Notes under the pieces: generated by a model | Told to the model about the DNA's origin: nothing | The model's database searches: none | The model's input: the letters and a program-made list of their open reading frames with translations, nothing else | Made by a program: the position numbers and the translations under genes | In this document: positions 5,354 through 64,000 of the stretch, piece after piece | Layout of the letters: each line of letters starts with the position of its first letter | How positions within the stretch are numbered: the stretch's first letter is position 1 | NCBI RefSeq assembly: GCF_029227915.1 | Contig: NC_079884.1 | Span: 16,370,001-16,434,000 of the forward strand | DNA length: 64,000 nucleotides | Source: Hydractinia symbiolongicarpus | Taxonomy: Eukaryota > Cnidaria > Hydrozoa > Anthoathecata > Hydractiniidae | Reading direction: 5' to 3'

Positions 5354-5661
5354 GATTGCATGTTTTTCTAGAACAATTAACTCTGCTAATTTATGTTTCT
5401 GATTTATACGGCGGGAAATCTCGCTTGATACGGTAGAGGTGCATTTTGTAGACGGCCTTGACAGCGATAAATGCCTTGATTATCTTTTTCGATATTTAAT
5501 TGTTTTTTAATCGTTTTGAAATGCGCATCGCCAAACGTGCTTTGATTTTTCTTGACTCAGAGTTCTCTCGAGACATTCAACTCACTCACAGTTAAAGCTG
5601 GCGTTATATTTGTTTCTTTCTTTGTAGCCCTAGATTTTAGATTTTTTACGAAGCGTAGAAC

Positions 5662-6560: not shown

Positions 6561-7568
6561 TAAGCGAGTTCAACAAATTCACTCAAATCAAATTTAAAAC
6601 TGTCAGTATTTTCATTCCACGTAATGCCGAGAACCTTTTCCTTTTTAACTTCGAAGTTTTGTTCAATTTCGTTAATTCTTTGTCGTAACTCCGGATAATT
6701 AGTTCGCCATTTGCGTAAGGCAAACATTCCCTCTAAAAACCTTGTTTTGAGTTTTTTAAAAAGTTCGAACGGTGTTTCCATACTATTCTCTCCACTTATA
6801 CAATCGTCTACATAAAATGACTCGATTACCTTTTTTACAAACTCAGGGTCAATAACGGAAAATTGATTTGCATGCTTACGTATAGTTCCATTTAGCAAAA
6901 ACGACGAGCTATTTACCCCAAAAACGGTTGGTTGAACCTTAAAGGCGTCGTCAAACCAAAGAAAGCGGAGATAATTTCGATCCTTTTCGGCGATACTTAT
7001 TTGGAGAAAGGCTTTTTCGATATCGGCAGTTAGGGCAGTGTCAAACGATCGAAAACGGATAAGAACCTCAAAAAGTAAGGATGTTAACTGTGGCCCCTTG
7101 TGAAGACAATCGTTTAAACTCGGACCTAGGCGTGTTCCTTTTGACGAAGCATCGAATACTATGCGCACTTTAGTTGTTTTCTTGTCTTCTCTAATCACCG
7201 TGTGATGAGGCAGGTAGTGTATATCGCCTACGTTACCAATTTCAATAGCCCGTTCAATTATGCCGAAGTGCTCTTGTTCACGAAAAATATCATCGCACCT
7301 TTTTAATAACTCTGGGCTAGTTTTAAGCTTGGTAAAAATGTTTTTTAAACGTTTTTTAGCAGCTTTGAAATTATCACCTAAAACTGGATGCTTCGCTTTA
7401 AATGGCAATTCAACTTCATAGCGCCCTGCATCGTTCAATTTAATGTTCTCTAAAAAATCATTTTCTGGATGCTTTTCGTCTTCTAATATGCCCAGGGTTT
7501 CCAGATCCCAGAATCTCGACATTTTAAATCCAACCAAATCGCGATCTCTAGTTTCGACAAACACGACA
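6558..7568 (-). pseudogene. BEL/Pao reverse transcriptase
   Basis: The frame runs from about 7568 to a stop at 6558. It contains FWDLETLGI (the BEL protease/RT linker), HTVIREDKKTTKVRIVFDAS, LTADIEKAFLQI and the catalytic box FYVDDC at about 6801-6816. These are the usual reverse transcriptase motifs of the Pao group. The first dozen codons of the open frame (upstream of about 7570) belong to the inserted DNA transposon, not to BEL. The RT itself is open over about 330 codons, then frameshifts into RNase H. Confidence 0.8.
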
Positions 7569-11728: not shown

Positions 11729-13063
11729 GCTTTACTCAGTTATTCAGAGACAGTATGATTATTACATTTCTTTTTCTATTTATGACCTTTAGCCAGATAT
11801 AAGGTAAACGTTGATTATGTTTTTATGATTTTAATATGCCCTTTACGCATGTTTGTTGCAGTCTTGTTGGTTCATATTTTGTTAATATGCTAATGATGAT
11901 AATAGGGGTATTTTGTTTACTTTTTTTAGGAAAAACTTATTCGTCGTGGAATTAAAAAGGCGACATATTGAAATGCTAAAAAGGGACAAGTACGATACGC
12001 AGTTGTTCGTTTTAAGTAAATATATTCAGTTATATTCAGTTAGCTACATCTACTGTTCGATAGCCTCTATCAATATAGCATATACTTCTACTGCCTCATT
12101 TATTTCTGTTGGGTTTTCAGTTGCCCTTCCTTTTGAACCGAGCACGATATCCGCAAATTCTTTGAATTCCTCTGAGTAATTCTCGTTTGTGTCTTTAGTG
12201 ATACTTTCGAACAAATCAATTTCTCCTTGATCAACATTTTTCGCATAATGAATCAGGGCGACCACGCGGGAGAGTAGACGAATTGCTTGGGGCTAGAATA
12301 TGCTGATTCCATCTGATAGTCAGCTCATAAAGTTCACGTCTGACAATAATCATGAAACAGAATCTTATGCAATCAGCGATAACAAGATTTGTAGCGTCAA
12401 GAACACAGTTAATTCTTTGAAAAAGTTTCTCCAACAACTAGGTCTGTCCTTTGCAAGTTGTGACCAGAAACTTTCGATTTTTTGGTTCGCCGGTGATGTT
12501 CTAACAATGAAACTATTAACGCCTGAGGGTGCGTCGTTATCTCCCGATCTTAAAGCGATATGCATGGCTTCGATAATTCGTCACTTATTCTGGTGGGTAC
12601 GACTTTCAGTTGTTTGACTGCTTGCAGGTAATATTGTGCAATAACTACCGATTGTTTATTTGTCTTCCCTACTTCAAGCCATATTAATCTCCGCGAAAAC
12701 CCATCTATACAGCCGTGTACGCAAAAACCATACGGTTTCAACTTGTCATAGCCATCGATGTGCCACATGAAGTTTGGTCCTGGGACACTATATGTGCGAC
12801 GGCGTAATCTTTTCTTTTTTCGTGCCTGGACTCCTTCAGGATCAAGATCTCTGACAATCTCCATCACAGATTGACGGGTAACAGGGATGCCTCGCGATCT
12901 TTCAATCCGCCAGATCTTTCTATATCCTAACAAACGGAAAGTAATTTCCGTTTTATCATATGGTAATTTTGAACATCAATACACCTTTCCCGGATTTATA
13001 TTTTGTAAAATATTGCGTGCATGAAAACGAGGCAAATCTTGGTAAACATTATTCGCGTTCATA

Positions 13064-15049: not shown

Positions 15050-15189
15050 CAAAAAATCCATCTAACGTTATATGATCCTAGAATTAATGATAGTTTGTGT
15101 AACATAAATCCAAGAATATGAAAACTGCAAGAAGATATGCTTATGGTTGACAAACGGGTTGGTTTTGCTCATTATATTGACAGTACACC
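15050..15189 (+). repeat. direct repeat, copy 2 of 2, outside the inverted repeats
   Basis: Copy of 13403-13541 located between the right inverted repeat and the point where BEL sequence resumes (about 15190). Confidence 0.85.
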
Positions 15190-16360
15190 GACCCATGCAA
15201 TATCCAACCTACTTTCGACTCTAACGCAACCGGTCCACTTCCATCTCCTCTTAAAACTTTTCCAGTCAAAGTCCACCAATAAAAATTTGAGCCAACGAGC
15301 AAATCAACAGCGAGATCACCCGCCCCCGTATCGGCAAGGCTTAAATTTTTAATTTGGCCATAGTTCTGTTTTGCGACTTTAATTGGTTGATCAGACAATA
15401 GTAAACAAATAGTTGGAACACAATGGGCATGCACTAATATTTTTTCGTCACTGTGCAAACCTTTCATAAAGAATTCAACGCTTTCTACTTTTGACGCAAC
15501 TGACTCATTATTTCCGAATGTAGCAACTGTTAGATTTTCAACGCTTTTTGTGGAAAAGTTTAAAACAACTCTTATTCGCTTTGAGATATACAATTTTTGA
15601 CTACCGGCATCGAACAAAACCCGCACGTTGGCCTGGTTTCCACTTGCACCTATTATCAATACTTGAGCAGTTTGTAACAATACTGAATCGTTCGACCTTA
15701 CGTGTAAATTTGTCAAATTAGCAGGTTGGTCTCGCTCATCACAAATCGCAGAATTGTGTTTTCCTCTACAGTAAAAACAATTTTTGTGCTGACGCAATGC
15801 CTTTGAATGTGGCCTGATTTCAGACATAAAAAACATCGTTTCAATTTGAACACGTGATCTTTACGGATCTCGCATTTATCTGAAAAATGGGAGCCTTTAC
15901 AAAACAGACACTTGATTTGCGAACGCGATTCAGATTTCGAAAATAGCGCGGATGTAGTAAAAAGGCGATCGTCTCCTTCCTCTAAATGGGGTATCTCGCA
16001 TGATTCTCTTGTCATGATTTCTTCCCCTAAGATTTTGAGGAGCCTAGTTAAATCCCACCCTTCTCCCTTTATAACCCTGCTTATCAGTAGCCTTACATTG
16101 TTCGGAAGCCTATTTATTCTAATAGGTGAAAGTAATGCACCATAGTTCTTGCTATCAATACCCAGACTAAATAAACTTCTTACGTGAGATTCGATCGTGT
16201 CATAAAACTTACGCAAGTCACTTAAATTTTCGTCCACATCTGGTGGCAACTTTAACAGTTCGTGCATGTGCACTGATATGATTTGCTGTATATTTCCGTA
16301 ACGCTCCTTCAAAAGTTCCACAGCTTTGGCATAATTTTCGTTTGTTAAACTTAAAGCTTA
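15190..16360 (-). pseudogene. BEL/Pao gag and protease region
   Basis: The first frame (from about 16360) reads LSLTNENYAKAVELLKERYG, then three zinc-knuckle motifs: CLFCKGSHFSDKC, CFLCLKSGHIQRHC and, after a frameshift near 15830-15720, CFYCRGKHNSAIC. The protease follows with VLFDAGSQKLYIS (catalytic Asp; DAG instead of the more common DSG) and ends VGWILHGSV. These are typical of BEL gag-protease. The N-terminus is cut by the insertion at 16355, and the C-terminus by the TIR element at about 15190. The gag frame would package element RNA and the protease would mature the polyprotein. Confidence 0.75.
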
Positions 16361-45645: not shown

Positions 45646-48600
45646 ATGGTAGATACAGTTAAATATGGGTTAAAATGTTTACTGTTTTATTTCTCGATAG
45701 AAGTATGTATGGCGTATAATGTTACAATTCTTTATGATAAATGTTTCGAAAAAGACATTAAATATTTGCGCTCTAGTTTAGCACTTAACAATTTAACATT
45801 GAGCAATGTTAGATACAGAGAGGTATCAAAAAATGATACTTTACAGAACTTGACAAAGTTGATGTTCAGTGAAAACGATTTTATTTTCTCATTTTTTAAA
45901 AGACACGCACCGGCAGGTGATTTACAAAGAAATCATGTGGCATTTGGCACATCTTTGTTTGAGCTAGTAAGTTATTTTGAAAGCTGGTGTTTTAAATCTT
46001 TGGGTTCCTAATGTTATGTTGAAACAAGTAATTTAAAACCTCCGTCCCAAGGCCTTTCTTTCCTTTTTTTATCAGAGACGACCTTTTTGATAAAATTTAC
46101 TAGTTGCTATAAACATTGCACTAAAATGTTTAATACCCTGGGGAATGAGTATTTTCTTTTTCATAGTATGCCCCTTGTTGGTGAATATAGCCGTGACCAT
46201 AACTTGATGACATTCCGGTAAAAGCGCTTTGCAATTAATAGACGGTTCCAATGGTTGAAACACACTAAGATGGAGAGATATAATCAGCAACTTCACTTTT
46301 TACAGTTTTACAAGATTCATTCACTAAGTATAGCTCTTCTTTTTCATAGGGTGCATGGGTCAATAATACGGAATTCGCATCGTGCATTAAGTACACGCAG
46401 TCATACAGAAGTATTTTGATTTCACTAGTTTACAGTGTCTTTTTAAAAGGTGTTGTATTAATATCGGATGAAAGTCATTGCTCAAAACACTTCTCAGACA
46501 ATCTCATGAAGGACCTTCGCAAGGCTGAAAGAAACAATAAAGTCAATCTAAATTTACACCATGTAAAGTTAACGTTGCATCCAAGACACAGAGAGGAGTT
46601 AAAAGAACAGTTTTATATCTTGAAAACATCTGAAGTAAGTTTAGTTATACTGTTGAGTGCTCATGAGAACATGCAAGATGTTTTTCGTCATGCTAGCTAT
46701 TTTGATTTAACTGGTCCCGCTCAAGTTTGGCTAATACCAAACTACAAGGATGGAGTGTCTTCATCGTTTATTCCTTTGAGAATAATCTCCTTCTCGGAGG
46801 ATGAAGATGATATTATAGTCCGCCCGTACATGAAGTTAACGACCACTATACCTCGGTTGCTGGCGATGTACGATGGATACATGAATACATGCATAGCGTA
46901 AGTGCTTTGTTTCTTTTATAATAATAATAATGATAATAATCCAATAACATTCCATGCTTGAAACTTTAAATGGAAGCGGCCTTGATGTCTTGCAAAGAGA
47001 GACAAAAATAAAAGTTTTTTTATTTCCACGTATTGTTTCTTTGGGCAAAAAAAATAACCATTGATAGGATACGAATATTTCCGCGAAAAAACGAACCAAA
47101 AATTGAGATTATATTTCTAATCACTTTTTTTCTGATCCTATTTTAGTTCTCACCCCTCGTGTATACTTTCGAAGTTATATGAAACAATTCAACTGAACGA
47201 GCATTACGTGGAAGAAGAGCTGCACATGACAGTACGCTATCGCAATCTTGCCGAAGGAGACTATTGGACGTCGGTTCATGCTGAGCTCAAAAAGAATCAA
47301 TTTATTATTCAACACAACACTATCCCAATATTGAGGTCTGTTTCTGGTAAGAAAGTTGATTAAGTTTTTTCTTTTGTTTTTTCAACGGTGCGAAAATGCA
47401 TTTGTCTTAACAACACACCTATGTGATTTTATATAACACTTTTATCTCCAGTTCGAAAAATGATTTATTTGCAAGTGTAGACAAAAATTGATAATGTGTC
47501 AACTATACTCATCACTCGGTTTATAGCAGTTATGTGGAAACTAAGTCAGCAATAAAAAGAGAAACAAAGCAATCATGCTATATGCTATGAATTATTTGTT
47601 GTAATTCTTTTGTACAAATTCGTTACTTTATTAGTTTTACTTGTTTCACTTTAAGAAATAAGTTTATTTTCTTTATTGTGATTATGTACCTAAGATAGTC
47701 TCTTCAGTTCCTATTTGTACTGTTATTAATGAGGGTCCTAGTGCATTTAAAGTCCTCATTTGAGTTACGAAAGTCGTGCGCAAGCACAGCAACCTTCTAA
47801 CTAGACAACTGTGCTTTAATAAAGGCATGACTCGGTTGGGGTTTGTACCCACAAACTTCGCACTGGAAGCGAACGTTCTATTACAAGGTCACCGGTCAGT
47901 AAAAATGAAGTGTTGCAGGGTTTGCTAATTATTTTCACATTAAAAAAGCTGTTGCACGCATAAAAACAAAACAAACAATAAAAAACCTGTCGATTTGAAC
48001 ACAATCCAATCTTAATAAATCAATTAAAACATGGTTGAAATCTGCCGATGCTAGAAAAACAAGAAACTGAGACGGTTTAATCACTCACAACTGCCAGGAG
48101 GCCATTCTGACCTTCTGCCAGTTAAAATAAGAAACTTTTCAACTATTTACGCTTTTGTGTGAATGTTCTATCATAAGGGGTAGCAGCAGTACTTGCATAT
48201 AGAGGGTGATGTCACATTAAAAAAAGATATCAATAATATTATATATAACCGTTTTTCTTTCAATAAATTATTTAAAAAAAAACATGAATAACAAAACAAC
48301 ATACCCAATTGACTATATAATAAAAACAAAGATATAACACTAGGTAAAGCGAAAAAATTGATTCCTGTAAAACCCAATATGCAAGTCCTGTTTGTACCAT
48401 TGGCACATAATACTGCGATTTGAAGTATATATATAACAAATTTGCAAATGAGGAAGAAATATCACTTATGAAAGGCGTGGGGGAATTTATAAAAAGTAGC
48501 AGCTTGGATGTGATTCTCAAAAATCTTTACAAACATATCGGAATAGAAGTAGCGGCAGGAAAAAAGTTAAAAACAGGTACTTCGGACTTCAATCCTGAAA

Positions 48601-51600
48601 AATTGGGTTATTTAATACAACAATAAACGTTAAAACTGATATAAAGGAGCTGACGGCTATTCTGATAAACCTCGATATCGATATTATATAAAAAATTAAT
48701 ATATATGCACAAAACTAGTCGTTAGCCCGTGGAAAAATCCACAGGTTCGCCCGTCCTTTATATATCGCATTTCGTGTTTTTCCACTGTGAGATACACTGG
48801 AATTATTTCAAAAGTCTGTTTTACTAATGATCTAATACGGATGTTATACGCTATACGCTTAAGGCTCTATACTAAATAATATAAAAGTTGCTAGCTATGC
48901 AGGTTATTTCACTTCGATTTAAAGAATCTCAATAACATAAATGCAAAACTCTGGACTTCATTGGCGATAGATTTGTGACATAACCAACAATGTTGTTGTC
49001 TATCATAAAGTGAAACTTTGTGTTTAGCTACAATTATTTGATTGATGTCAACACTGTGGGGGTGAAGAATCATCTGAAATGACAAATTTCAAGATGATTG
49101 TATCATCATAATGAAGATACAAAACCATTTGCAATACTGGTATAAACTTTAAAGATAGAATAACATGGATAAAAAAATATAATCAAAGTCTGCAGAGAAT
49201 GAATTTCCAAAATGCTACTAATTTAGCTAGCTTAAGTTCCTTAAATGATGCAATCACAATGTTTTAAGCTCCAAAATGATATGAAATCAATGTAAAACCA
49301 TAGTTGAAAGACTAAGATAAGGACTAAATACATACATGAAAATACAAAACAAGTAACCAGTAACCAGCGTAATAACAACCAATATGTGCGACAAGACCCA
49401 AAGTTTTATACGGAAAGCAAAAGAAGCACCTTTTGCGCAAAAATTAATAAACGGCGCGCCATCAAACAACTTTTCGTTCCTGAAGTTGCGTTTCAAACAC
49501 TAGCCACCTATAAGGTGTAAGTCAATAACTTGTAAAGGAATATGAAATAGGTTTATCTTAAGCAAGACTTAACTACACTATAATAAATGCAACATAATGA
49601 GCACTAGATCTTAAGACATTCTTTAAAAAATCAATGTCGACCCGCCTTATAAATAAAACTTTTACCGCCTCGGCAAGTTTCTCATGTAATCTCGCACATG
49701 ATTTGGCTCCGCGTTAAAGATTCACCGATGTGTTGATTTTTTTCCGGAGACGAAGAAAGGCCAAACCAAACACACATTCCTGCGGATTGTGTGAAAAAAC
49801 AAATCGTTTTTAATGCGGTGGTGTAGATAGACGATTTATATATGGACGTGTTTTCTCTTGACTGTGCGAAAAAGTTGTAAAATGAAAAAAAGCAAAATCA
49901 CAAAATATTTAATAACTTTGGTTAAAACCGTTATTAGATCAAGAAAACTCACTGGGTTGGAGTTTGTAGAGATACTATTGGTCCTACAAGGTCAATTTTG
50001 AAAATTAGGAGTGTGTCGCGATAATATTGGTCATTTTGAGTTTTTGCTCGTGATTTACTCATTTTTTCGAAAAAATAGTAAAATTGTATTTTTAAAGCAT
50101 CTTTGACATCTTGGAAACCAGTAAAAACTGTGATGAGTAAAATTTATTCAGAAATGAGTAAGTAATGAGCGATTTAGTCACAAGCCTAACTTTTTCGAAA
50201 ACATGCAATAATCACTCTTAAAACATTATAGCGATTTGAAAATTTGGCAGAATAAATTGTCTGACTATGCTTTTTTCATTCAAATCAAAGTTGGCAACAG
50301 AATTAATGAGTACTTCGAGATAAATGTGGTCTTTGAATAAATAATTTTTGGTGAATTATAACTTTGAAATTTTTATTAAATAACAATTTAGAAATTTGGA
50401 TAAATAATAATTAGGAACATATAATACTTATTTACAATGATAAATTTTCGTTCAAAAGAGTGAATTATGATGTTATTGGTCTTTAAAATTCATAAAATCT
50501 AGGTTCAATATCCTACGCTAGAAGCGAAAAACAGGACGTAGATAATTTCAATGAAATAATAAGAATCAGTTATACGATTCAATATTCAAATTCGATATAG
50601 GGTGTGCAAATGTTTAGTATAGTATTCTGTTTATGACTTATTTAAGAGTAATTTGAGATTAACTTAGTCCAAGGCAAAATTGTAAAAATTTACGATGCTC
50701 TTAAAACAAGTTCCACATAGATATCCTTTGGCATACAAAGGCTGTCATGATCAATATCAACGAAAGCTTCAAACACTTCAACAGGATCACAAAGAACATC
50801 TCCAGGAACTATGCTGAATCTTTTCAAAGCCATATTGCGAGACCTGTCAGACTTCAGATAGTTTCCTCTCAAGAAACACTCGCCAGAATTAATGGAGTGT
50901 CCGTAACGATCCCTCATTACATCAGTTGCAACTCCTTTTTCAATCACTTTAATAAAATAAATTGGCTCACAGGAGTTGAATGAGATTACGGCAATAAAGC
51001 ATAGAATCGAAACAAATTCAAAAAAGGGTTGACCACGATCTCGTTTTTCATCCAGGTAACAGTCATCATCGTTTTCTACGGATTCCTCAACTTTATCCAT
51101 TTGACTCTCATCAGGACCATCTACTCTCAAACATGCATCAAACTCTAAATTTAAACAGTTACCACAATCACATAAGAATTCTTTCATATATACAGAATTC
51201 TCATTAGGCTTGTATTCAAACAGATGCATTGCCATACAACCATCGATCTTCCGTTCAACTCTCGCCATGCGCTTTTTGTCATCTTGCTTTTGACTGACGA
51301 CTGTGTAACTCATTCTGGGATCTTTCCGGATATCGAGATAGTCACGAATCGCTTGGCTGTCGACAAACCAAACGTCCAAACCAATGATGTCTCGTCTTAA
51401 TATAGATTTAACTCCGAAGGCGGACATGGCATCAATTAGCCCTTTACCGTGACCTGCTGCTCCGTACAGACGAATTATGCGTACATCGTACTTGTTGGCA
51501 AGAGAATGGTATGAATGAAAAGCCCATTTATTTTTATATTGAGTGGGAGCGTTATCGCTTTTAATGATAACTGTTTCATTTCGGATTTCCCAACGATCAA

Positions 51601-54600
51601 AAATATCCTCAAGGACTTCAAAAACGAAAGATGGGTCGTGAGTTGTATCGTCACTCAAATGATACACAAATTTGTTTTCTCCGGGTTCAACAATGGAACA
51701 ATGTAAGGCGTACTGTTTCCCAGAAAAATGCGCTTCTTGTACCTCGTGTTTGGTTTTGATGGCAATGTTCTCTGAAAAATCCATTTCAATGTACCTGCTC
51801 CCTTCGTGTCGTTCTCTGATTTTTGGAATAACTGTTGCGGTATTCTGTACATGTTGGCGATGTTTGAGATAGGCTGGACCGAGAGCGATGAGTTGCTCCA
51901 CTATTTCCGATACATTGTGCTTTTTGTCAAGACGTGTTGTTCTCTCGTAGCTCTTTTCGACACCATTCTTGACATAGATTTCCGTCTTCTTTCCAAAACT
52001 GTAATAAGATGTCTCCTTCAGCGAGGTGAATTCCGGATGAAGCTTTTCGAGATCTTCTGATGACAATGAAGCTTTTAAACTGAGAAACTCCGTGACAGAG
52101 TTTAGCTGTTTTAAACATTCTGTTTTTCGGAAATTGTTGATTCCTTTCAATAAAAGATGGACATTTTGGCATTTGATACAAAGACACGACTCCTTTTCTC
52201 GTTCTGTAGGTGGGCCGATATAGAATGGTCGATATTTGTAGAAAGTGGAGAACGAACACTTCAAATCCTGGTGAATTTTATTAAAATCCTTGAAGAGTTG
52301 ACGAACAGGTTTTGTGTATATTCGGCGATGGGCTCTGATATACGTTTTAGTACTGCCGGTCTTTTTCAGAATGATCTGTTTCTCCTCTACACTGTCATCA
52401 GTAATACAAGCTAAATGTTTGAAATCTTTTAAATAACGAAACTTACCGATTCTGCTTTCATTTCGTCCGGAATCAGTTGTCGGGATGGAGACTTCTTCGT
52501 TCAACCAGTAATTGTAGATTCGTTGAAGATTTTCCATAGGGATTGAATAGCGAGCTTTGTGTTGATGTTTGTAGTTAGTTAAAATTGATTTTAGTCTGTA
52601 AGGCTTGTAATCCAAACTTTTAGCAATCCACCTAATAAAGCATTCGTTATCAAGGGCCTCTCCGAAGGTTTCGTCCAAAAACTTTGCTGCCGTATGTTTA
52701 TAAAATCGGCTATTTAAATCGCATTTCAATTTCGAGAGAACGGATTCCTTGAATTGACGCTCAAACATGTTGTCACGTTTTTCAGCCAATCTGGCAAGTT
52801 CGACGCCGATTGATGTGGTTGTGTCGTTCATGTCATAAGTGTCGTTATTCCGGATGGGTGATAGAGGAATGGACAGTGTGAGTGAATCATTATTCTCGTC
52901 AACTGTTGCGTTATGCGGTACTAAATTTTCAGGTTCAAACGGAGGAATGCTCGACGATGTTGGTTCACGGATCTCAAAAACAGCATTTTGTTGGTCAACG
53001 AATGACATTTCCGTTTCGATTACATTACCATAACTGCTCATAAAAGAGACATTCATTACATCGGATATGGCTGATACGTTGGGATTTTGAGCTTCCGGTT
53101 GGCTTTCAGACTCTAGTGATAGAAATGTGGGTAGAGTAGCATCCTGGTCCTCCTCATTGTCTACATCAGGAGATTCATGATGTGGCTTAACGTGACGATC
53201 TCTGTTGAACTTTTGACCAAATGTCTTTCCGCAATACTCACATACTTTGTTCTGACTCATTTTCTGCTTCCGGACCATTACTTTTGTACACTCTTTCTTA
53301 TGGCGAACAATATTCCCTCTAAATTTCGATCGTAAGGGACAATCAACCGTCGGACAAGCCCACAACTTTGCTTTCTCATCATACAGAGGCTGTATTTTTC
53401 TGTTTTTCCCAAGTGTTACTGGTTGATAGTTGAATCTCTTCTCGTGTTTATTTCTGTTGCTCATATCACTGAATTGTTTCTTGCATGAGTCATCGCGACA
53501 AAAATAAAACTTTGCTTTACTGACTGGCGCCATCTCAAACTTTCAGACAATGAAGTTTGAATGAAACTTTCTTTCTTTTTAATCCCACGCGCGCCAAAAC
53601 ACTGTTTCGATTTAAAAAAACATTCGATTCAGAAAGTAAACATTCGATTTGATCTCGTAAAACAATGCAATGTCTTCAAATAAATGCGAAAGGAAAGTAA
53701 AGTGACGCAAGTTCAGTACACATGGTTTGTGGCTTTATTGGCTTTATTTATTAGTACTTTTTTAACATGACATGTGCCATTTAATGGCTTGTTCAGGTAT
53801 ACTTTCACTAGAGATTTTCAGATGACCTTTCTAATCTTTTTCTCCTCTTAAAAATAATTCTTATACATTTCATAAATATTTTCACTTTATTAATTTACTT
53901 TTACTTTTTAAATCATTAACGCGGCTTGTCTAACGCAAACTGTTAGAAATTGGATCTTTTTTTAATTTAAATACTTCCGCATCAAAGTGAAATCTAGCTA
54001 AATTCTATCATGAAAACAAGGACTTGAACTTTCACGTACCACTCCTCGTGGAGTCGAATTTGTTAATAACACTGGCCTTTACTGATATTGAAAATTCTTC
54101 TTAGTAACAGTTTCTGAAACACTTTCGGGCGAAATTTGGAGTAGTTCTTGAAAAGATAAGTCCTTAACAGCGCCTTAACGAAAAAACCATTTTAATCTTC
54201 GATCACTCTTTATTTTCTACGTTTTCCGTCCTGGATTATCTTTAGGATAGCCAATATCATGTTTTGAGACATTTCTATTTCGGTATCGACGAGTAAATTC
54301 AGATATAACAGTCAAATTGCCTTCTAGTACGCTTTTTTATGTCGAAAAATTAAAAGGACCATATTTATCCTCAGGCACTCTTTAACCTTGTGAAATCAAG
54401 TCAAATCCAACAATTGTATACCTTAAAGTGAAGCTGCTGAAGAAAATCATGAAATTCTTAAGAGTACTCTAAGATAATAGCAAAAATGATGTTTACGTTA
54501 AAATCGGAAAAAGACTAATTGATGATGAAATACTCTTAATATTTGAATTTTTTTTTACTTTATTCTACATTCAAGACCAGTTGAACCATTTTCCGAAATT

Positions 54601-57600
54601 TCGAGCCATAAAAAAGGAGACTTCAAGGTTCCAAAAATTAAGATGACTTTTTTTACCTTTGCAGCTAAGGACTAAAACGTATTTTAAACTACTCCTGACT
54701 TTAGACGTAATTTTCTCTCAGTCTACTTATCATATAAAACTGTAATTTTCATATTTTGAAAGAAAAATCTTATCTTAATTCGCCATTAAAATGGAATTCT
54801 TCTTGGATTTAGAGACTGCTACGATATTTTAGATTAAGTGAGAGATATAAAAATCTCCACTTTTCGCACAGTCAAGAAAAAACACGTCCATATAGATATC
54901 GAAGTTCGGAGCCGTATGTAACACAAAACACGCATTCAAAGAGAGTTAGTATCAACACGAGATAGCTGTATTATTTTGTTTTGTCTTGTTTTATACCGTA
55001 AATAATCGATTAAGCCCCCACTCCAGAATACCCCTTCCGAATAAGCCCCCTTCCCCAAAACCCATTTTGACCATAAGCCCCCTTCCCGAATAAGCCCCCA
55101 TGGGGGCTTATTCGAATTCACAGTAATTTCAATATAGTTGATAGGGACTGAGAAAATACTACTGTAAACAATTGATTAAATGGTATTTATTTCGCAGGTT
55201 GAGGTATTAATAACACTCGTGTTTATAATATCCAATTCAAAGTTAGGGTGTTTTTCTTTTTTTTTCTTTCAACGCAGATTGTTAGCTTGGGATACATATG
55301 AGTGTCATTTAATGCCAGTTTTCGGAGCATGTCTTAAATCTAAAAAGATTGAACCGTTTTGGTCCCTGGAGGTTGCACTTAATATATTCAGGCGCCGGAT
55401 GTTAGTTGGAACAAGCCGTTTAAAGCATATTGCACAGAGAAATACGATGAATGGCTTGAAACCGTCGGAATTCATCAATGTTGTGTGTATTAAAATCGTT
55501 GTTTTTATTTTTTAGCACACTAGATTTTTGCATAATTTTATAAGCCCCCTCCCATTTAACCCCCCCCCCCCCCCCCCCCCCGAATAAGCCCCCTCCCCCA
55601 AAACCAATTTTGACAAATAAGCACCCGGGGGCTTAATCGATCATTTACGGTATGTGCGTGAAAAACAGCTTTTTTATTGTTTTTAGTGTGAAAATAATTA
55701 CCTAAACACGCAATACGTGGTTTCAGCTCCTCTGTTTACACTAAGGAGACCTGGATATTAAGTTATTAAAAATAGCTAATACTTCTCACGTTATAGGTGA
55801 CAAAGTTCGAAGGTTTTTGCGTGCTGTTACGATACTTGATAGCCCATACACGATCGAAGAAACTCATATGCTCGATCCAGTCCAGCAGTCATGTAAAGTT
55901 GGAATCATATGTCGGAAACCAGTTTCTGTTGCTGGCAATAAAAGTGTACATTACGAAGTGACGTGTTGCGTTGGTTTTGTTATTGAGTTTTTCCAAATAC
56001 TAATCGAAGAACTCAATCTTGACATCGACATGTATATCGTAGAGGATGGCAAATATGGTATATATCAAGACGGAGAATGGAATGGTTTGATCCGCGACGT
56101 TGAAAGCGGGAAAGCAGATATTGCCGTGGCTGGTTTGACAATAACTGGTGAACGATCAAGATTTATTGATTATACAGTCCCGTACATGGAGGCTCAAATG
56201 GGTATTCTTGTAAAACCACAAATTGTTAGACTGGAATTCTTAAATTGGGATTTTATAGCCCCTCTGTCGGGAGAACTGCAGCTAACCCTATGGGTGGTAG
56301 TTGTGGGTGCAATGGTGTTAAATTATATTTTTGAGAACAATCTATACGCGTTGAGCTTGACTGATTGTAAGTTTAAATTTCTCAAGTATTACCCAACGTT
56401 TGAAAGTATGACCTATATAAGCGGAGTGACGCTACAGAGAGATCTTGGTGGTGTGAATCCAGTTCGAGCCGGAGCAAGAGTGTCAGCCATTGTGTTTGCA
56501 TTTGGTATGGTAATCGTAGTAACGACGTATACAGCAGTTTTAGCTGCACAAAGCGTCCAAAACCAAGAGAAGAATCCTTTCCTAGGATCAAAAGACCCAA
56601 GGGTAAGCTCTTTTGTGTTAGTTTTTTTCTTTAAACTGCTACGCTGCATGCGTAATTTTCCTGGAATGGTCAACATAACATTGCATGGAATTTTTGTAGA
56701 AGATGCAACATCAAGGTGTTTACTAACTTACCCTATGTGCATGAAGCGATTTAAATTTTGTTGCTCCCAAACAGCTTTTCACTGAGCCAGCTGATACGCG
56801 ATCATAATTACTACTTCTGATTATTGTAATAAAATCATAAAATGTTTTTTAGATGAGAAATCCAACTAGCGAATTTACCTTCGGGACTATAAAAAGTAGC
56901 AGTTATGAAAGTTTCTTTCAAAATGGCGAAACAGAGATATTGAAACGCATGGGTAACTTCATGAAACCTTACAATGTGAAGAATACTGAAGAAGGATTTC
57001 AAAGAGTTAGTAATGGGTAAGCTCAGGGTGAAAAGGATTGATCCCGATTTGGTTCTAAACTGTTCTTACTTTCAATAGCCATAGCCTAATATGTAAAGTG
57101 ACGAATAGTGTTACTTTACAATATTTCCTCAAATCCTAATGAACAAATGTCATTTTATTTCTGATTTTAATTGTTTTAAGATTTATAAGTACAGTGGGAT
57201 TCCTCGAGCTTCTTTAATTTTTACTTACTTCCAATGAAGCTTGCCGAAACACTTTAAATGAAAGCAGGAAGGTAGGCTTAAACCTCCTCGATAAGAGAAA
57301 TATTACAATCATAACTATGATCTGACTAAACAAATGTAACGCTCTGTATGTCTTGTATTCACCAATGTCGTAAAAAAAATCAGACCTTTCCAATCATTCT
57401 CTAATATTTTTTCTGTCAAAAACACCTGGAAACGAGGCTAAATTATTAGCTACCTTTAATAACTAACTAAAAATTCTGACAGTAGTTTTTATATTAGAAC
57501 ACTACAGGCATTTTTGGATGATTATATGTTTTTGTTATGGTATGCATCACACGATCCGGACTGCAAGTTGCGATTAAAGAAGGACACAATGTTAGCTTCC

Positions 57601-58011
57601 GGCTATGGCTTGGCGTTGAATAAAAAACTTCACTCCACAACAGAACTTATGAATAAGGTGATCTTGCAGCAACTGGAAACTGACGAAATTTACTCCTTCC
57701 TCTCCAAATGGTTTATCGAAACATGCAAATTCAACGAAAACATTGAAAACAGTAGACTAGGAGTGACAGATTTCGGAGGGTTAATAATATTGCTCATCGT
57801 GGTATCGGTGGTCAGTTTCCCTGTATTAATTCCGGAGCGATTTTATTACAAATATCTGAACGTTAAATTGACGGTTGCCGTTAAAAGTTTTTTTCAAAAT
57901 AAGAACGTCCTTAGCAGAAAAGCGACATTGTCGACATCTATTAATAAGAGTGAGAGAGATTTTGAAGAAAAGAATCCGTCAATGCCGGCGTCGCTGAAAA
58001 CGCAGAGTTAG
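45646..58011 (+). CDS. ionotropic glutamate receptor subunit (six exons)
   Basis: Exons 45646-45966, 46350-46897, 47147-47346, 55797-56602, 56853-57016 and 57498-58011 join in frame, all with GT/AG introns. A hydrophobic start (LKCLLFYFSIEVCMA) looks like a signal peptide. Exons 1-3 form the amino-terminal domain. Exon 4 gives S1 with GLTITGERSRFIDYTVPYM, in which the Arg matches the residue that holds the ligand carboxylate. M1 (LWVVVVGAMVLNYIF), the pore loop (SGVTLQRDLGGVNP) and M3 with TTYTAVLAAQ, the counterpart of SYTANLAAF, follow. Exons 5-6 give S2 with QAFLDDYMFLL (second Asp at the ligand acid position), Cys pairs, M4 (FGGLIILLIVVSVVSFPVLI) and a ~50-residue tail. It would be a ligand-gated cation channel at the cell surface. 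The gate and pore differ from the canonical form. The ligand is not known. Confidence 0.85.
48715..48785 (-). mobile_element. Helitron-like 3' end fragment
   Basis: The minus strand shows AAATGCGATATATAAAGGAC, a hairpin around GTGGATTTTTCCACGGG and CTAG at 48715-48718 followed by T. The 5' part is missing. Confidence 0.65.
49873..50689. other. 3' non-coding part of the TIR transposon
   Basis: AT-rich sequence downstream of the 947-codon gene; nothing else recognised. Confidence 0.4.
50690..53533 (-). CDS. 947-residue zinc-finger protein with transposase-like RNase H-fold core
   Basis: A single uninterrupted minus-strand frame. The N-terminus has three zinc-finger-like modules: C12/C17/H30 (incomplete), C60/C65/H78/C82 and a classic C98/C101/H114/H118. 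An acidic, Ser/Asn-rich linker follows (about 120-250). The core has EMDFSENIAIK (Asp585), VIIKSDNAPTQYKNKW (Asp660) and GHGKGLIDAMSAFG (Asp701), a D-75-D-41-D layout that fits a DDE/D nuclease. Further Cys pairs (CLCIKCQ near 455, CDCGNC near 800) may bind metal. I know similar unnamed proteins in cnidarian genomes but no named family. It lies antisense in a receptor intron between 34-base inverted repeats, so it is probably the element's transposase. Its intactness beside decayed elements suggests recent activity or host use. Confidence 0.65.
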   Translation of the reverse strand: MAPVSKAKFYFCRDDSCKKQFSDMSNRNKHEKRFNYQPVTLGKNRKIQPLYDEKAKLWACPTVDCPLRSKFRGNIVRHKKECTKVMVRKQKMSQNKVCEYCGKTFGQKFNRDRHVKPHHESPDVDNEEDQDATLPTFLSLESESQPEAQNPNVSAISDVMNVSFMSSYGNVIETEMSFVDQQNAVFEIREPTSSSIPPFEPENLVPHNATVDENNDSLTLSIPLSPIRNNDTYDMNDTTTSIGVELARLAEKRDNMFERQFKESVLSKLKCDLNSRFYKHTAAKFLDETFGEALDNECFIRWIAKSLDYKPYRLKSILTNYKHQHKARYSIPMENLQRIYNYWLNEEVSIPTTDSGRNESRIGKFRYLKDFKHLACITDDSVEEKQIILKKTGSTKTYIRAHRRIYTKPVRQLFKDFNKIHQDLKCSFSTFYKYRPFYIGPPTEREKESCLCIKCQNVHLLLKGINNFRKTECLKQLNSVTEFLSLKASLSSEDLEKLHPEFTSLKETSYYSFGKKTEIYVKNGVEKSYERTTRLDKKHNVSEIVEQLIALGPAYLKHRQHVQNTATVIPKIRERHEGSRYIEMDFSENIAIKTKHEVQEAHFSGKQYALHCSIVEPGENKFVYHLSDDTTHDPSFVFEVLEDIFDRWEIRNETVIIKSDNAPTQYKNKWAFHSYHSLANKYDVRIIRLYGAAGHGKGLIDAMSAFGVKSILRRDIIGLDVWFVDSQAIRDYLDIRKDPRMSYTVVSQKQDDKKRMARVERKIDGCMAMHLFEYKPNENSVYMKEFLCDCGNCLNLEFDACLRVDGPDESQMDKVEESVENDDDCYLDEKRDRGQPFFEFVSILCFIAVISFNSCEPIYFIKVIEKGVATDVMRDRYGHSINSGECFLRGNYLKSDRSRNMALKRFSIVPGDVLCDPVEVFEAFVDIDHDSLCMPKDIYVELVLRAS
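53534..54860. other. 5' non-coding part of the TIR transposon
   Basis: AT-rich sequence upstream of the 947-codon gene. It would contain its promoter, but none was identified. Confidence 0.4.
54994..55652 (+). mobile_element. pogo-type (Tc1/mariner superfamily) element remnant
   Basis: TACCGTAAATAATCGATTAA at 54994 is inverted at the right end (55627-55652), 25 of 26 bases matching, with TA at both outer edges. Subterminal AATAAGCCCCC motifs repeat several times, and one run has expanded into about 22 C. The interior encodes a pogo DDE fragment. Confidence 0.75.
55279..55475 (+). pseudogene. pogo/Tigger-like DDE transposase fragment
   Basis: After an AG acceptor the plus strand reads LLAWDTYECHLM (the pogo AWD-x2-x-H box). 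In a shifted frame it reads VPGGCT, stop, YIQAPDVSWNKPFKAYCTEK, YDEWLETVGI. Both are hallmark segments of DDE_1 pogo/Tigger transposases. Only about 60 codons remain, with a frameshift and stops. Confidence 0.7.
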
Positions 58012-59097
58012 TTTCAACGAGATACACGGATAGTATCGTCAGCGTGAAATCGTGTGTTGACATTTTTTTATTGTCGGTTTGTGTGTATTTAAATGAGCTG
58101 ACTCTGTTAATTGTTGTTTTGTTGATAAAACAAAGACTTCTTAATCTTTGCGTGATTTAAGGGACATTAAGATTACTGATTATTAATGGCAGAACGAGTT
58201 CATATTCCATCTTTTTTTTATTTGTACAATGTGCGGAAGACTTATTTTTCACACAAAATATATACATGTATAAACATGTACGATATAAACACTGTATTTT
58301 TGTTTTGAAGTAAGAAAACTAACATTAACTATTTTCTTTTTTCTTCGATCATTTACTATGATCTGTATATTCTATGATAGGGTGTGAGCTAATTGGATTA
58401 TAATAACAATGGTGTAAATTTCAACCAATGAAATAAATAGATATGTGGGAACATGACCACATGTTTCCATCAACAGTAAAGCTCGTAAAATTGTTGATTG
58501 ACATGATTCAGCTAACCTAGTACCCGGTAACACTTTTTAAAGTAAAAGATTCGTCTACTAAGAGAAATTAAGTATTAATTTGCTGTTTACATAAAATATG
58601 ACAGTAGAAACATAAGGCAGGTGCAAAGATAACTGACATCTTAGGACTATCATCTAAACACCTAGCTGCGCATTAAACTTTGTTTCCAAACTTCTTTACA
58701 TTTCTTTCGGTCAAGATTAACTAACAACGTGCTGAAATGATAAAATAAATATAGATGAATATGTTCGTTTCCTTGAATATATTTCTCCTTCGTTTACGTC
58801 TTTATCGTACTTTTATTTGTTTTTATTTTCTGACTCTATCTAGAAAGGAAGGTTGGTACAAGGTTGTCGTGTTTTTAAAGGGAGGTTGGTACGAGGTTGT
58901 CGTGTCAGTGTGACTGTTTTTTTAAAAAAAAAATAAGATCACATTTAAACTCGTTTTTAAGCAGATGTTTTTGGTGCATTTTCAAAATGCTTATTCTTAT
59001 TCTCATAATATTATGTAAGAGGTTTTTTTAAAATAGCTGTACATTTTTGAGTATATATTACAGTATTTATTTACTTGCATATTTTTTGAATTATTAG
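58012..59097. other. region between terminal exon copies 1 and 2
   Basis: Either the 3' flank of the receptor gene or the intron leading to the next terminal exon. About 180 bases at 58260-58440 recur at 60097-60290 in the same orientation, so the spacer was duplicated with the exon. The 58850-58910 segment holds a short duplication (GGAGGTTGGTACRAGGTTGTCG). Confidence 0.6.
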
Positions 59098-59641
59098 GAC
59101 ATTGGATGCCCTTATAGATGACTACCAATTTTTATATTATTACCTGTCACGTGATAGCACTTGTCAAATCCGTTTGGTTCGAGATGCTTTATTGGAAACA
59201 GGTTTGGCGTTTGGAATTAAAAGAGGACAAAGTTTGAAGTTGCTGTTGGATGCAATTGTACTAAAACACGTCGAACAAGAAACGTTAGTCCAATTGCAAA
59301 AGAAATGGTTTCCAAGTATATGCCAGCCTTCATTAGCGATGGAGAACCACAAGCTGTCAATTAACCATTTTGGAGGGCTTATTATGCTACTCATCTCAAC
59401 AGCTTTTTCAGCAGTCTTGCTATTATATCCTGAGCGCATATATTACAAATATATTGACAAATATATATCACGAAAACTTGAAAATGTATTAGATGAAGAC
59501 TGCAGAAAGACTAACCAAGGCCATCCTGAAACGTTGACTTTAAACAGGTCACTTGTTCAGAATGACGTCACTCCGGTTATGTTTCGGTATAATCCGGAAT
59601 CAACAGAAGATATAAAGTCAAAGAAAGAAACAATGAAGTAA
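59098..59641 (+). CDS. second copy of the receptor's terminal exon (S2, M4 and tail)
   Basis: An AG acceptor at 59096-59097 is followed by G then ACA TTG GAT GCC, which is the phase left by the receptor exon ending at 57016 (Gly codon split GG|N). The frame reads TLDALIDDYQFLYYYLSRDS, ETGLAFGIKRGQ, KKWFPSICQPS, then M4 (FGGLIMLLISTAFSAVLLLY), PERIYYKYID and a ~60-residue tail ending at a TAA at 59639-59641. The ligand-acid Asp and the Cys pattern are kept. It has no own start, S1 or pore exons nearby. It is either an alternative last exon or the remnant of a partial gene duplication. Confidence 0.7.
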
Positions 59642-60670
59642 CTATGATAATTTATCGGTAAGCTAACAAAAGGAAGTTAGTACAAGTTAACAAGACAAGT
59701 TAAACATAATATTCTCCGATAACACTTCCCCAATAACGTTGCATTTGACTTAAGCCTTATACGCATGTATATGAAATTTATGGCATATAATTAAAGGGAG
59801 ACATTCAACTTCCTTACCTAGTTTATCTTATTAATGCAAATTTGATTGGTAACCTCTGTGTACCATCTTCACAGCAACACTTGTCACAACGTGTGGAAGG
59901 CGTGGCAGGAACTTAGTTTTTACACAAAATATACACGCTTTTTCTCCTTTAAGAATATGCTCTATAATAATATGAAGTTGGAACTTCATTTTAAAAACAA
60001 CAGGTCCATTGTTTAGATCGATAGAGAAATAAAAATAATGGCCAGCCTGGTTAAAAATTTAATATTCTTAATTTAAAAAATGCGTGTATACATGTATATA
60101 AACATGAACGATATAAACACTGTATTTTTGTTTTGAAGTAAGAAAACTAACATTAACTATTTTCTTTTTCCTTCGATCATTTACTATGATCTGTATATTC
60201 TATGATAGGGCGTGAGCTAATTGGCTTATAATAACAATGGTGTAAACTTCAACCAATAAAATAAATAGATATGTGGGAACATGATCACAAATTTGATTAA
60301 ACAATTCAGCCAACCTAGTACCAAGTAGCGTTTTGTAAGAAATTTGCATACTATAAGAGATGAAATTTGTTGTTTACATAAATGTGTTAGTAAGAACATC
60401 AAGTTAATGCAAAGAGAAATGTCATCTTAAAATATTACCAACTTCTTCCCTAAAGGTCATCTGCATTTACCTATATGGTAATCGTATAAATTGAATCAGG
60501 ACAAAAATTATGAGATTCGGGAGATGGATCTCAAAAGGATGGCGAGAGTGTGTTTTTTTCCTGTTTTCTTTAATTGAATAATTTTCCTTAAGAGGTCTTT
60601 CCTTGAACAAATTACATTTTAAATACTAGTTTTATTTATTTTCGTTTTATATCTTTTTTTTAACTTTTAG
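59642..60670. other. region between terminal exon copies 2 and 3
   Basis: Includes the second copy of the duplicated spacer block (60097-60290). No coding frame is supported. Confidence 0.6.
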
Positions 60671-61229
60671 GTCATTAGATGCCATGATTAATGACTACCA
60701 ATTCTTATATTATTACTTGTCACGTGATCGCACTTGTCAACTCCGTTTGGTTCGAGATTCTCTATTGGAAACAGGTTTCGCGTTTGGAATTAGAAGAGGA
60801 CAAAGTGTGAAGTTGCTGTTGGATGCAATTGTACTAAAACACGTCGAACAAGAAACGTTAGTCCAATTGCAAAAGAAATGGTTTCCAAGTATATGCCAGC
60901 CTTCATTAGCGATGGAGAACCACAAGCTGTCAATTAACCATTTTGGAGGGCTTATTATGCTACTCATCTCAACAGCTTTTTCAGCAGTCTTGCTATTATA
61001 TCCTGAGCGCATATATTACAAATATATTGACAAATATATATCACGAAAACTTGAAAATATATTGGGTGAACACTACAGAAAGACTAACCAAAGCCATCCT
61101 GAAACGTTGACTTTAGACAGGTCACTTGTTCAGAATGACGTCACTCCTGTTATGTTTCGGTATAATCCGGAATCAACAGGAGATATTAAGTCGACGAAAA
61201 AAACAATTAATAATGGTTTAATACATTAG
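60671..61229 (+). CDS. third copy of the receptor's terminal exon
   Basis: An AG acceptor at 60669-60670 is followed by G then TCA TTA GAT GCC, again phase-compatible with the receptor exon ending at 57016. The frame reads SLDAMINDYQFLYYYLSRDR, ETGFAFGIRRGQ, then the same M4 as copy 2 and a slightly different tail (NNGLIH) with its stop at 61227-61229. The Asp before the ligand-acid Asp has become Asn (IND instead of IDD). About 247 bases in the middle are identical to copy 2, while the first ~140 bases differ at about 15 positions. Confidence 0.7.
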
Positions 61230-61361
61230 TACTCTTTAAGCAACATCGTACACATCTTTGCAAGTTTCAAGTTTCAAGTTTGTAACCACAATCCATAGTC
61301 AGTATCAGGCGAATAAAAATTTTAGTCGACAAATAATTTGGGCCGTTTTCAATTTCTATTA

Positions 61362-62221
61362 CCGGTGTAACCGTAAGTAATTACTCCCCGAAAAAAATTA
61401 CTCCCCCAATATTATTTTCCCGGGAAATTATTACTCCCACACGGAAATTATTACTCCCTTGAAATCACTCTTTTATAAATGGAGGAGTACTATTTTCCCA
61501 GTAAAACTAACTCCCATGAAGACATTCCATTGCACATTCAAATGCGCGAGGTTCCTTTATTTATAGTTTTTATAGTTTGTTTTATCGATTTCTAATCTTA
61601 AACAGTTCTTTTTCAATATTTTTTTAGAGTGTCTACAACAAAATACTATTATTTGCTTCATCCGAAAGTTCTAAGCTCAATGTCATTTATTACAGTTTTT
61701 CGTTGTAAGGTTGTAGTTATCGTGAGAAAATAAATTATCAAATGATCTTGAAATGATTATTCTAAAGTCAAGTTCAGCTGCATATATACATAGAGACATC
61801 TCTGACATATACCAATCATTTAAAAGAAACAATTAAAATCATTTGATTCTGAAAGCTTTTTGTATTGACATTTCTTAAAACAACTCTTATAAACGCTTCT
61901 TATAAAAGCTTGTATTTATATAGATTGTAATGGTCCCACTGAAAAGGAGAAGCCAAACCCACCCCACTGGATTTTTAACTCTTTCGGTAGTCCACTGTAA
62001 GTTCTCTTAATAAATTCTTTTTATCAACATAATAATTGTCATTTTTTATTTATTAAGATAGGAGAGTAAAAATTTCCTGCGGGGAGTAATAACTTTCTGG
62101 TAAATAGATACTCCCAGGAGTAACAATATCCCGGGAAATAAGTACCGGGAGTATTTATTTCCTAGTAAATTATTACTGGGGAGTAAACTTTTAGGGAAGT
62201 CTGTTTTTACGGTGACACCGG
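61362..62221. mobile_element. 860-base MITE-like inverted-repeat element
   Basis: CCGGTGTAACCGTAA (61362-61376) is inverted at 62207-62221, 14 of 15 matching. Both ends carry many AATTACTCCC / GGGAGTAAT subterminal motifs in opposite orientation. The central part is AT-rich and non-coding. Confidence 0.7.
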
Positions 62222-62715
62222 AAATACTTAATAAGGCCCACGGATTTATTTGTACGAAGTCATTTTGAGATTAAAGAATGTGTTGGGGAGAGAGGTTATT
62301 GGGAGGGGCTTAATGCTTCTTATAATATGGATTTTTTTTGAAATCATAGAATAATAACTAAAATTGTTTGTTATATTGGAGGGAAAATTCAAAATCAAAG
62401 CAAATTTAAGAAGGTAACTTTCTTATTTCGTTTAAAAGTTCTTAAACTGGCTATATTATTGCCAATCAGTAGTTAGGGCTGTTACTGGTGTTACTGCTTT
62501 TTTCATAAAGCAAGTGTTGTATTAAAATCAGTTAAACACCCCTGAGCATATTTAATGGCATGAAGTTTATTTGTTAGAAGTTATATCCAGGGTAAGTCAG
62601 GGCTTTTATTAAAGGGGGCTTAACCATACATTTGCGGCATTTATTTAGACAATGCCGAAAAACTTTATAATCAAGCCGCTGACTCCTGAAGTCTGTGAAA
62701 AAGTTGCGCGCGTTT

Positions 62716-62945
62716 TAAGATTTTCAGGAACCTATCGTTCAAAAAACTTTATGCTTTATAATTTATGCACAAGATCGCCAAAGCAAATCTTTGCCAAAGT
62801 AATTCCCTTCAATTCGTTTAAGAGTTCAATATTTTTTTTGAGTTTCCACTGATGAAATCCAGTTTTTTATATATTTAACTGGTCCAGATTATCTATCGAC
62901 AAAAACTCTTTTTGCATTAAACAGAATATTCTGCAAATTACCAAA
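62716..62945 (+). repeat. direct repeat, copy 1
   Basis: Matches 63604-63840; the spacing of 888 bases resembles the ends of a degraded element or a local duplication. Confidence 0.8.
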
Positions 62946-63603
62946 AATTTGATTTAATTCAGATTGTATATGCGTGGTGTTTTCATTGACTTGTTCCAGA
63001 AGAATATGGTAAAGGGAGGTTGTATGTTGACATATCTGCTTCCAGTGGGTAGTTCGGTCTTTTGTAAGGTAAATGGTGGGGATGATATTTATACATGGCC
63101 CAAAGTTTTCGATTTCTGTTTTTTTTTTAAATTTTTCTTTTAGGAGCATGACCAAGCTTTGTTTTTTTCTTTTTCGAGGTGTCTTTGGTGTACGAAGGTA
63201 GGGGAGTCTTCTGGAGGAGCAAACATGTCAAAGCTTTCTGAGTTGATCGCAGTCCATGATTAAAGACTAAAAAATAGCGAACAGCACTTTATCATTTATT
63301 TTGTCGGGGTTAAAAAGGGGGTAACCAAAAGGGAGGTGCATGTAAAATAGTTTTATAACATTTGTTGCAATCCCCTGAGTATCCCACTCAAAGAGAGCAT
63401 TTTGTTTTCAAATATGTCAAAATAATACCATGTGCTAAATTTGTGTTCCAAATTGTGTTGTAATCCATCTAATTTGGTGGATGAGTTTTATCGTTTGGTG
63501 GATGCGTTTTATCGTTTTCATAGCGTTTTTGTTAAAGTGACTACATAAAATGTGTTGTATGCAAATTTGTAGGGGGCAACCATTTCTAAACATAAATAAA
63601 ATT

Positions 63604-63840
63604 AAAGATTTTCAGGAACCTATCGTTCAAAAAACTTTATGCTAATTTATGCACGAAATCGCCAAAGCAAATCTTTGCCAAAGTAATTCCCTTCATTTCG
63701 TTTAAGAGGTCAAGATTTTTTTTGACTTTCTCCTGATGAAATCTAGTTTTTGATACATTTAACTGGTCCATTTTATCTGTCGACAACTCCTTTTTGTACC
63801 ATATTTTCACATTAAACAGAATATTCTTCGAATTACACGT
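63604..63840 (+). repeat. direct repeat, copy 2
   Basis: Matches 62716-62945, with small indels. Confidence 0.8.
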
Positions 63841-64000
63841 CTATTATAAAGCTAACATTCAGTTTACGCAGAAGTTCCGTACGCATGTAAACAATATGCA
63901 TGACATAATAATGAGTTGCAACGGAAACAAGCTCCTAAAAAATTAAGGTAAGCTTTAAAAAAGGATTTTCATTTCTTTATAAGAGAAGGTTTAAATGGCT

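Follow-up and report, generated by a model that had tools for sequence, protein, structure and literature searches.

The 64,000-nt stretch of Hydractinia symbiolongicarpus DNA analysed here, referred to below as the window (C10:16370001-16434000, NC_079884.1; GC 34.7%), contains a complete NMDA-like receptor gene, whose exons E1 to E5 (45646-57016) are followed downstream by three intact terminal exons, A, B and C. The locus is probably a single ionotropic glutamate receptor gene of NMDA-like type whose last exon exists in three tandem alternatives, with one E5 donor that can be spliced in frame to any of them. The exons of the gene model are as follows.

E1, 45646..45966, + strand: holds the start codon and the first part of the amino-terminal domain; open frame with a GTAAGT donor, phase 0.
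E2, 46350..46897, + strand: amino-terminal domain; AG acceptor, GTAAGT donor, phases close.
E3, 47147..47346, + strand: end of the amino-terminal domain; AG acceptor and GTAAGA donor; joined to E4 at a Gly codon.
E4, 55797..56602, + strand: S1 lobe and M1-M3 (channel); common to all predicted isoforms.
E5, 56853..57016, + strand: first half of S2; donor GG/GTAAGC (slash at the exon border).
E6a, terminal exon A, 57498..58011, + strand: 514 nt; second half of S2, M4, tail, stop; acceptor ttag/A.
E6b, terminal exon B, 59098..59641, + strand: 544 nt; second half of S2, M4, tail, stop; acceptor ttag/G.
E6c, terminal exon C, 60671..61229, + strand: 559 nt; second half of S2, M4, tail, stop; acceptor tttag/G.

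In the exon-by-exon model all borders from E1 to E5 are GT/AG, and the phases close into A, B and C alike, the Gly codon split at the E5 donor being completed by the first base of any of the three. The frames of A, B and C remain open until stops ending at 58011, 59641 and 61229. One donor is followed by three downstream terminal exons, each with an acceptor, a matching phase and a stop, which is the geometry of alternative last exons. The coordinates given in the initial annotation of this DNA all agree with the sequence, and the AG acceptor, split-Gly phase and own stop that it described for each copy are borne out by the open frames and the gene model. It had also proposed that the products would differ in half of the ligand-binding domain, which goes too far, as a terminal exon encodes the second half of S2 and not half of the whole domain.

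The product of E1 has a hydrophobic N-terminus, a putative signal peptide. E4 matched the Pfam families PF10613 (82.4 bits, cut-off 30) and PF00497 (40.4 bits), both above cut-off, and PF00060 at 24.3 bits, below its cut-off of 30.8; the PF10613 match identifies the S1 ligand-binding lobe of an NMDA-like ionotropic glutamate receptor. No Pfam family was matched by the terminal exons on their own, and a search of 55000-64000 against Rfam gave nothing at the gathering score. Isoforms A and C align to GluN3A from inside S1 through M4, with M1-M3 and M4 of the channel domain present. The nearest solved PDB chains are those of GluN3A and GluN2B for isoform A, and of GluN3A, GluN2D, GluN2A and GluN1 for isoform C. 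The assignment of the locus as one NMDA-like ionotropic glutamate receptor gene, with the amino-terminal domain, S1 and M1-M3 common to its predicted products, is supported. The pore loop in E4 reads TLQRD, and paralogs (e.g. L025, L027, L038) have FQRD or FQKD; this Q-R/K-D motif aligns with N-N-S of GluN2B.

Other features were seen around the receptor gene. An open frame of 950 aa at 50690-53542 (- strand), with a start that is zinc-finger-like by eye, lies inside the E3-E4 intron on the opposite strand and has no Pfam match. Retroelement pieces are found at 4404-7609, 12550-12975 and 15141-16357 (-), with DUF5641, weak RVT_1, integrase core and weak DUF1758 matches. A long tandem repeat with several open frames and QKYFTQF-type units occupies 7422-9766 (+). 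Downstream of the receptor, a repeat of ~230 nt is present in two copies 0.9 kb apart (62714-62941 and 63602-63836), pieces of which are 88-98% alike.

The likeness among A, B and C is well beyond what chance would give. Over 179 aa, C and B share 89% of their residues (E 4e-109); A and B share 37% over 121 aa (E 1e-25). The initial annotation spoke of a last exon and two more copies; three terminal exons are indeed present, but their layout is one plus two, since B and C are near-copies of each other and A is 36-38% identical to them in amino acids. Of 538 aligned nucleotides, 29 differ between B and C, and all of these lie outside a tract of 251 nt (59235..59485, + strand, corresponding to 60808-61058 in C) over which the two exons are identical. 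When 29 differences were placed at random, a gap as long as 251 nt arose in none of 200,000 placements, a sign of gene conversion across M4 and the end of S2. The differences between B and C are confined to the S2 half and the tail, and include the selectivity positions 704 and 732. A block that we call D2 precedes both exons.

D2 block in the A-B spacer, 58259..58482, + strand: 203 nt are 95.6% identical to 60087-60289; AATAAA at 58432.
Second D2 block, in the B-C spacer, 60087..60310, + strand: AATAAA at 60255 and 60260.

Apart from D2, the A-B and B-C spacers align poorly. As D2 is alike while the spacers otherwise diverge, the duplicated unit was probably D2 together with the exon, and B and C appear to be a tandem pair of more recent origin, partly homogenised by gene conversion. 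D2 was sought as a dispersed repeat in 195 kb of loci (L022-L042) and was not found. Part of the B-C spacer matches locus L030 (76% over 136 nt), a sign of repeat insertion. Folding of D2 gave z values of -2.2 for one copy and -0.5 for the other, and no conserved RNA structure is claimed for it. Just past exon C, an inverted match (61357-61438 vs 62147-62226, 74% over 82 nt) and a self-complementary stretch (62085-62177) lie within 61357-62226, a segment that looks like a non-autonomous DNA transposon.

The genome (480,894,487 bases in 76 contigs) was searched for relatives of these exons. A search with exon B gave at least 21 matches, 3 of them in the window; only the best candidates were scored in this search, and its counts are lower bounds. 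Outside the window, the 18 matches among these best candidates all lay more than 7 kb apart, and the closest pair so scored, 7.7 kb apart on C11, belongs to two genes with an E4 each. All 14 of the other stretches examined that carry this exon have one full copy each, with 3.3-7.5 kb downstream covered. One of these 14, L024, differs in kind, as the frame of its S2 exon stops short of M4; this exon may not be terminal. Tandem last exons were thus seen only at this gene among the loci compared. The terminal-exon frame of another related receptor, L041 (C10:7.89 Mb), is very long (562 aa), and much of it is Asn/Asp-rich low complexity.

The same phase is found throughout the paralogs. An AG acceptor in the completing phase was present at all 13 paralog terminal exons searched (a set without L024), and 9 of the 10 paralog E5 matches end at the same Gly codon before GT, the tenth (L032) falling short of it. 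The shared phase is therefore inherited, so that duplicates of the terminal exon are in phase from birth and can become useful at once. For the same reason, phase compatibility is not evidence of use; as an argument for use, which the initial annotation had implied and which was also considered here, it was dropped. Of the proposal that one gene makes three receptors, the common amino-terminal domain, S1 and M1-M3 and the three phase-compatible exons stand, but the phase adds no independent evidence.

Whether the exons are used was judged from other features. Of 18 columns conserved in the paralogs, 12 are kept in A, 13 in B, 13 in C and 14 in the terminal exon of the sister gene L042; of 101 other columns, 23, 26, 26 and 28 are kept, respectively. 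A frame of 171 codons was put through a neutral simulation that contained no indels (3000 draws); at 0.1, 0.2 and 0.4 substitutions per site it stayed open in 5.2%, 0.6% and 0.17% of them. Neutral drift is not expected to spare the family-conserved columns; their retention, with the open frames, is the chief ground for holding that A and the B/C type are probably both in use, and the pattern argues that both have been so for long. B and C compared with each other show 20.5 nonsynonymous and 9.5 synonymous differences, and no significant protein-level constraint was found between these two alone (tested as 20/30, p 0.12, compatible with neutrality). With acceptor scores based on a small training set and compared with 1247 AG sites in 40-64 kb, C ranked in the top 0.3% and A in the top 1.5%. 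None of the 28 acceptors scored ranked below that of B, whose score is reached by 23% of the 1247 AG sites; B may depend on a helper factor, or it may be failing.

These data also bear on an alternative in which a single exon type, either A or B/C, is in use and the rest are duplicates left behind that have yet to decay. The small divergence of B and C, which is statistically compatible with neutrality, and the weak acceptor of B would fit such leftovers, and tandem exon duplication is common, being described for ~10% of animal genes (PMC9013439). However, A and B/C split long ago, and their frames have nevertheless stayed open and the family residues are kept about as well as in the intact sister gene, which makes this alternative unlikely as a whole; for B versus C the argument from constraint is much weaker. 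Alternative last exons, with at least A and one of B and C used, and perhaps all three, are probably the best reading of the locus.

The nearest gene found in the genome, L042 (C10:18.24 Mb), is a sister gene, with 59-60% identity to the window in E4 and 58% in E5; its intron 5 contains ~900 bp of a short tandem repeat (L042:1356-2274). L042 has a single terminal exon, which is 50-52% identical to B and 34-36% identical to A. A is about equally far from B/C (36-38% in amino acids) and from the L042 exon (36%). Among the 10 paralog pairs with an E4 identity of at least 50%, the identity in E6 was 4-13 points below that in E4 in 9 and 4 points above it in 1. In the comparison of the window with L042 (E4 60%), B (52%) and C (51%), at 8 and 9 points below, are on this trend, and A (36%), at 24 points below, is off it, which suggests that A evolved fast or split earlier. 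By this measure B/C is the ordinary exon type and A the divergent one. The view of A as the receptor's last exon, to which later copies were added, is not supported here: it is the B/C type whose identity follows that of the sister gene. The idea that A came first was likewise considered and set aside, the L042 terminal exon being nearer to B/C (51-52%) than to A (36%).

In the tree, A, B, C and the L042 exon group together with support of 93/96, just under the starred level, and the possible orders of branching among A, B/C and L042 are not separable (AU p 0.36 and 0.30). A first tree without L042, in which A grouped with B/C (92/93), was replaced by this one. The undecided order leaves room for an exon derived from a vanished neighbour gene, in other words for B/C as what is left of a separate receptor gene in tandem that lost its front exons, the exons having been selected there and being now dead or only recently captured. 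The nearer kinship of B/C to the C10:18.24 Mb paralog exon (51-52%) than to A (36-38%) and the AU values are what such a history would leave, but fast evolution of A alone gives the same pattern. Moreover, no E1-E5 remnant was found between A and B, between B and C or further downstream over 22.8 kb starting at 58012 and reaching the end of L022 (the best match had E 0.40, while the same queries gave at most 1.1e-14 for the real exons), in line with the earlier statement that no S1, pore or amino-terminal exons stand ahead of B and C. We consider a lost neighbour gene improbable, more so than unused duplicates, and capture followed by use would amount to the same present-day mechanism.

An assembly artefact, by collapsed haplotypes or duplicated contig ends, could be suspected from the 251-nt tract identical in B and C, but is very improbable given the 29 differences outside it, the largely unalignable spacers and PacBio HiFi reads with an N50 of 13.2 kb, much longer than the 3.7-kb array (PMC10411563). 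The published H. symbiolongicarpus assembly HSymV2.0 is described as built from PacBio HiFi and Hi-C data (482.9 Mb, 84 sequences, GC 35.85%; PMC10411563); with this matching assembly HiFi-based, there is no sign of the misassembly that the initial annotation had named as fatal to its proposal.

A, B and C all keep the acid that contacts the ligand backbone and differ at one or two selectivity positions. Positions in the hydroid receptor were numbered via an alignment to GluN3A, to which the GluA2 numbers were carried by equivalences that we take to be correct, as we do the GluA2/GluN1 correspondences. In that numbering, the contacts to the ligand backbone are described as 450, 478, 480, 485, 654 and 705 and the contacts by side chains as 653, 655, 704, 708 and 732; glutamate goes with Tyr732 and Thr655, and glycine or D-serine with Phe732, Ser653 and a hydrophobic residue at 655 (PMC12226733). 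The roles of 485 and 705 are taken from PMC12226733 and PMC6307864. Arg485 corresponds to the R of ERSRF in E4, aligned with the R of ARSQV in GluN3A, and the acidic residue at 705 is D in A, B and C. The common part, E5, has S, S and Y at 653-655 by the same alignment. At 704, 705, 708 and 732, A has D/D/F/Y, B has D/D/F/L, C has N/D/F/F and the L042 exon has S/D/Y/L. The D/D/N difference among the three exons was at one point considered to be the ligand-binding acid (GluA2 E705), which was rejected because the GluN3A alignment puts that acid one residue on and the difference at 704.

Changes between B and C fall on 2 of the 3 selectivity positions among 9 S2 changes (p 0.024), an enrichment that was noticed post hoc and is only suggestive. 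Y655 and D/N704 fit no rule in the cited work, and hence no firm call of the ligand is made. In a placozoan receptor, F732Y alone is described as shifting the sensitivity to serine, alanine and valine and lowering that to glycine (EC50 up from 0.11 to 0.30 mM) without a ligand switch (PMC12226733), so that a single residue at 732 need not alter the agonist.

If A, B and C are alternative last exons, each pre-mRNA would have E5 spliced to one of them and would then be cleaved at the putative poly(A) site of that exon, the choice presumably depending on how splicing to each last exon competes with cleavage after it. The subunits would be constant in the amino-terminal domain, S1 and the pore and variable in the second half of S2, M4 and the tail, with differences in agonist preference or affinity and in the tails as the likely effect. 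The A and B/C types are an old pair, both apparently under selection, and B and C seem to be a younger duplicate. AATAAA motifs follow A at 58432 and 58744 (the first ~420 nt past the stop), B at 60028, 60255 and 60260 (the first 386 nt past the stop) and C at 61312, 61729 and 62009 (the first ~82 nt past the stop), and additional AATAAA/ATTAAA motifs lie downstream of each terminal exon; the AATAAA motif is frequent in AT-rich DNA.

The default guess for the regulation of the choice is the strength of the splice sites and poly(A) sites. Pairing of intron 5 with the A-B spacer, the B-C spacer and the stretch after C gave duplex energies of -151.4, -135.3 and -140.0, compared with means of -150.8, -139.0 and -139.1 for shuffled sequences (n=40), so that in this crude test no docking/selector RNA pairing between intron 5 and the spacers stood above the shuffles. 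The duplexes spanned nearly the whole sequences, and a short docking site could therefore escape the test. A more far-reaching reading, which we put forward as a possibility and would not call probable, is that this single gene gives three subunits with the same pore, in which ligand selectivity would be set by the last exon (704/732 being D/Y, D/L and N/F) and M4 and the tail also replaced, so that one choice in RNA processing would change agonist preference and trafficking at the same time, with gene conversion homogenising M4 while the pocket residues diverge.

The variable 3' regions of Drosophila PGRP-LC encode alternative ligand-recognition domains. PGRP-LC and pip resemble the present locus in their tandem 3' variable regions, of which one is chosen at a time (PMC9013439); they belong to other protein families, and the crude test above gave no sign of the competing RNA structures described for them. 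Within the ionotropic glutamate receptor family, the nearest known splice choice described is AMPA flip/flop (GRIA1-4), where tandem alternative exons of the S2 region are likewise used one per transcript (PMC8257547). Flip and flop are internal exons of 115 nt, which code for 38 aa with 8-10 differences at the end of S2 and act on the dimer interface and linker (PMC8257547). Here, by contrast, the exons are not internal, mutually exclusive cassettes of ~115 nt, but terminal exons with stops (514, 544 and 559 nt), which would replace the second half of S2 including ligand contacts, M4 and the tail. Tandem exons that swap residues near the ligand-binding loops are described in cys-loop channels (insect RDL exon 3/6, GluCl exon 3 and nAChR alpha4/alpha6; PMC2064938), but these are internal, of an unrelated fold and with demonstrated transcripts.

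Cnidarian NMDA-type receptors with many changes at ligand residues have been described as the NMDA-Cnidaria class (PMC6307864), of which the present receptor may be a member; the main text of that paper contains neither 'exon' nor 'splic' (0 occurrences each). No report of tandem alternative last exons in ionotropic glutamate receptors was found among the titles and abstract openings listed, short lists of 1-20 rows out of up to 3,074 hits in the open literature.

The structure of the locus is real, unusual and testable, and it is a variant of tandem alternative exons rather than a new kind of system. As a natural experiment, it offers three S2/M4/tail modules on one constant pore, which can be compared by expression in cells. 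If the exons are used, the agonist-contact residues of an ionotropic glutamate receptor would be switched at the level of exons, and an animal with a nerve net would gain more amino-acid receptors without extra genes.
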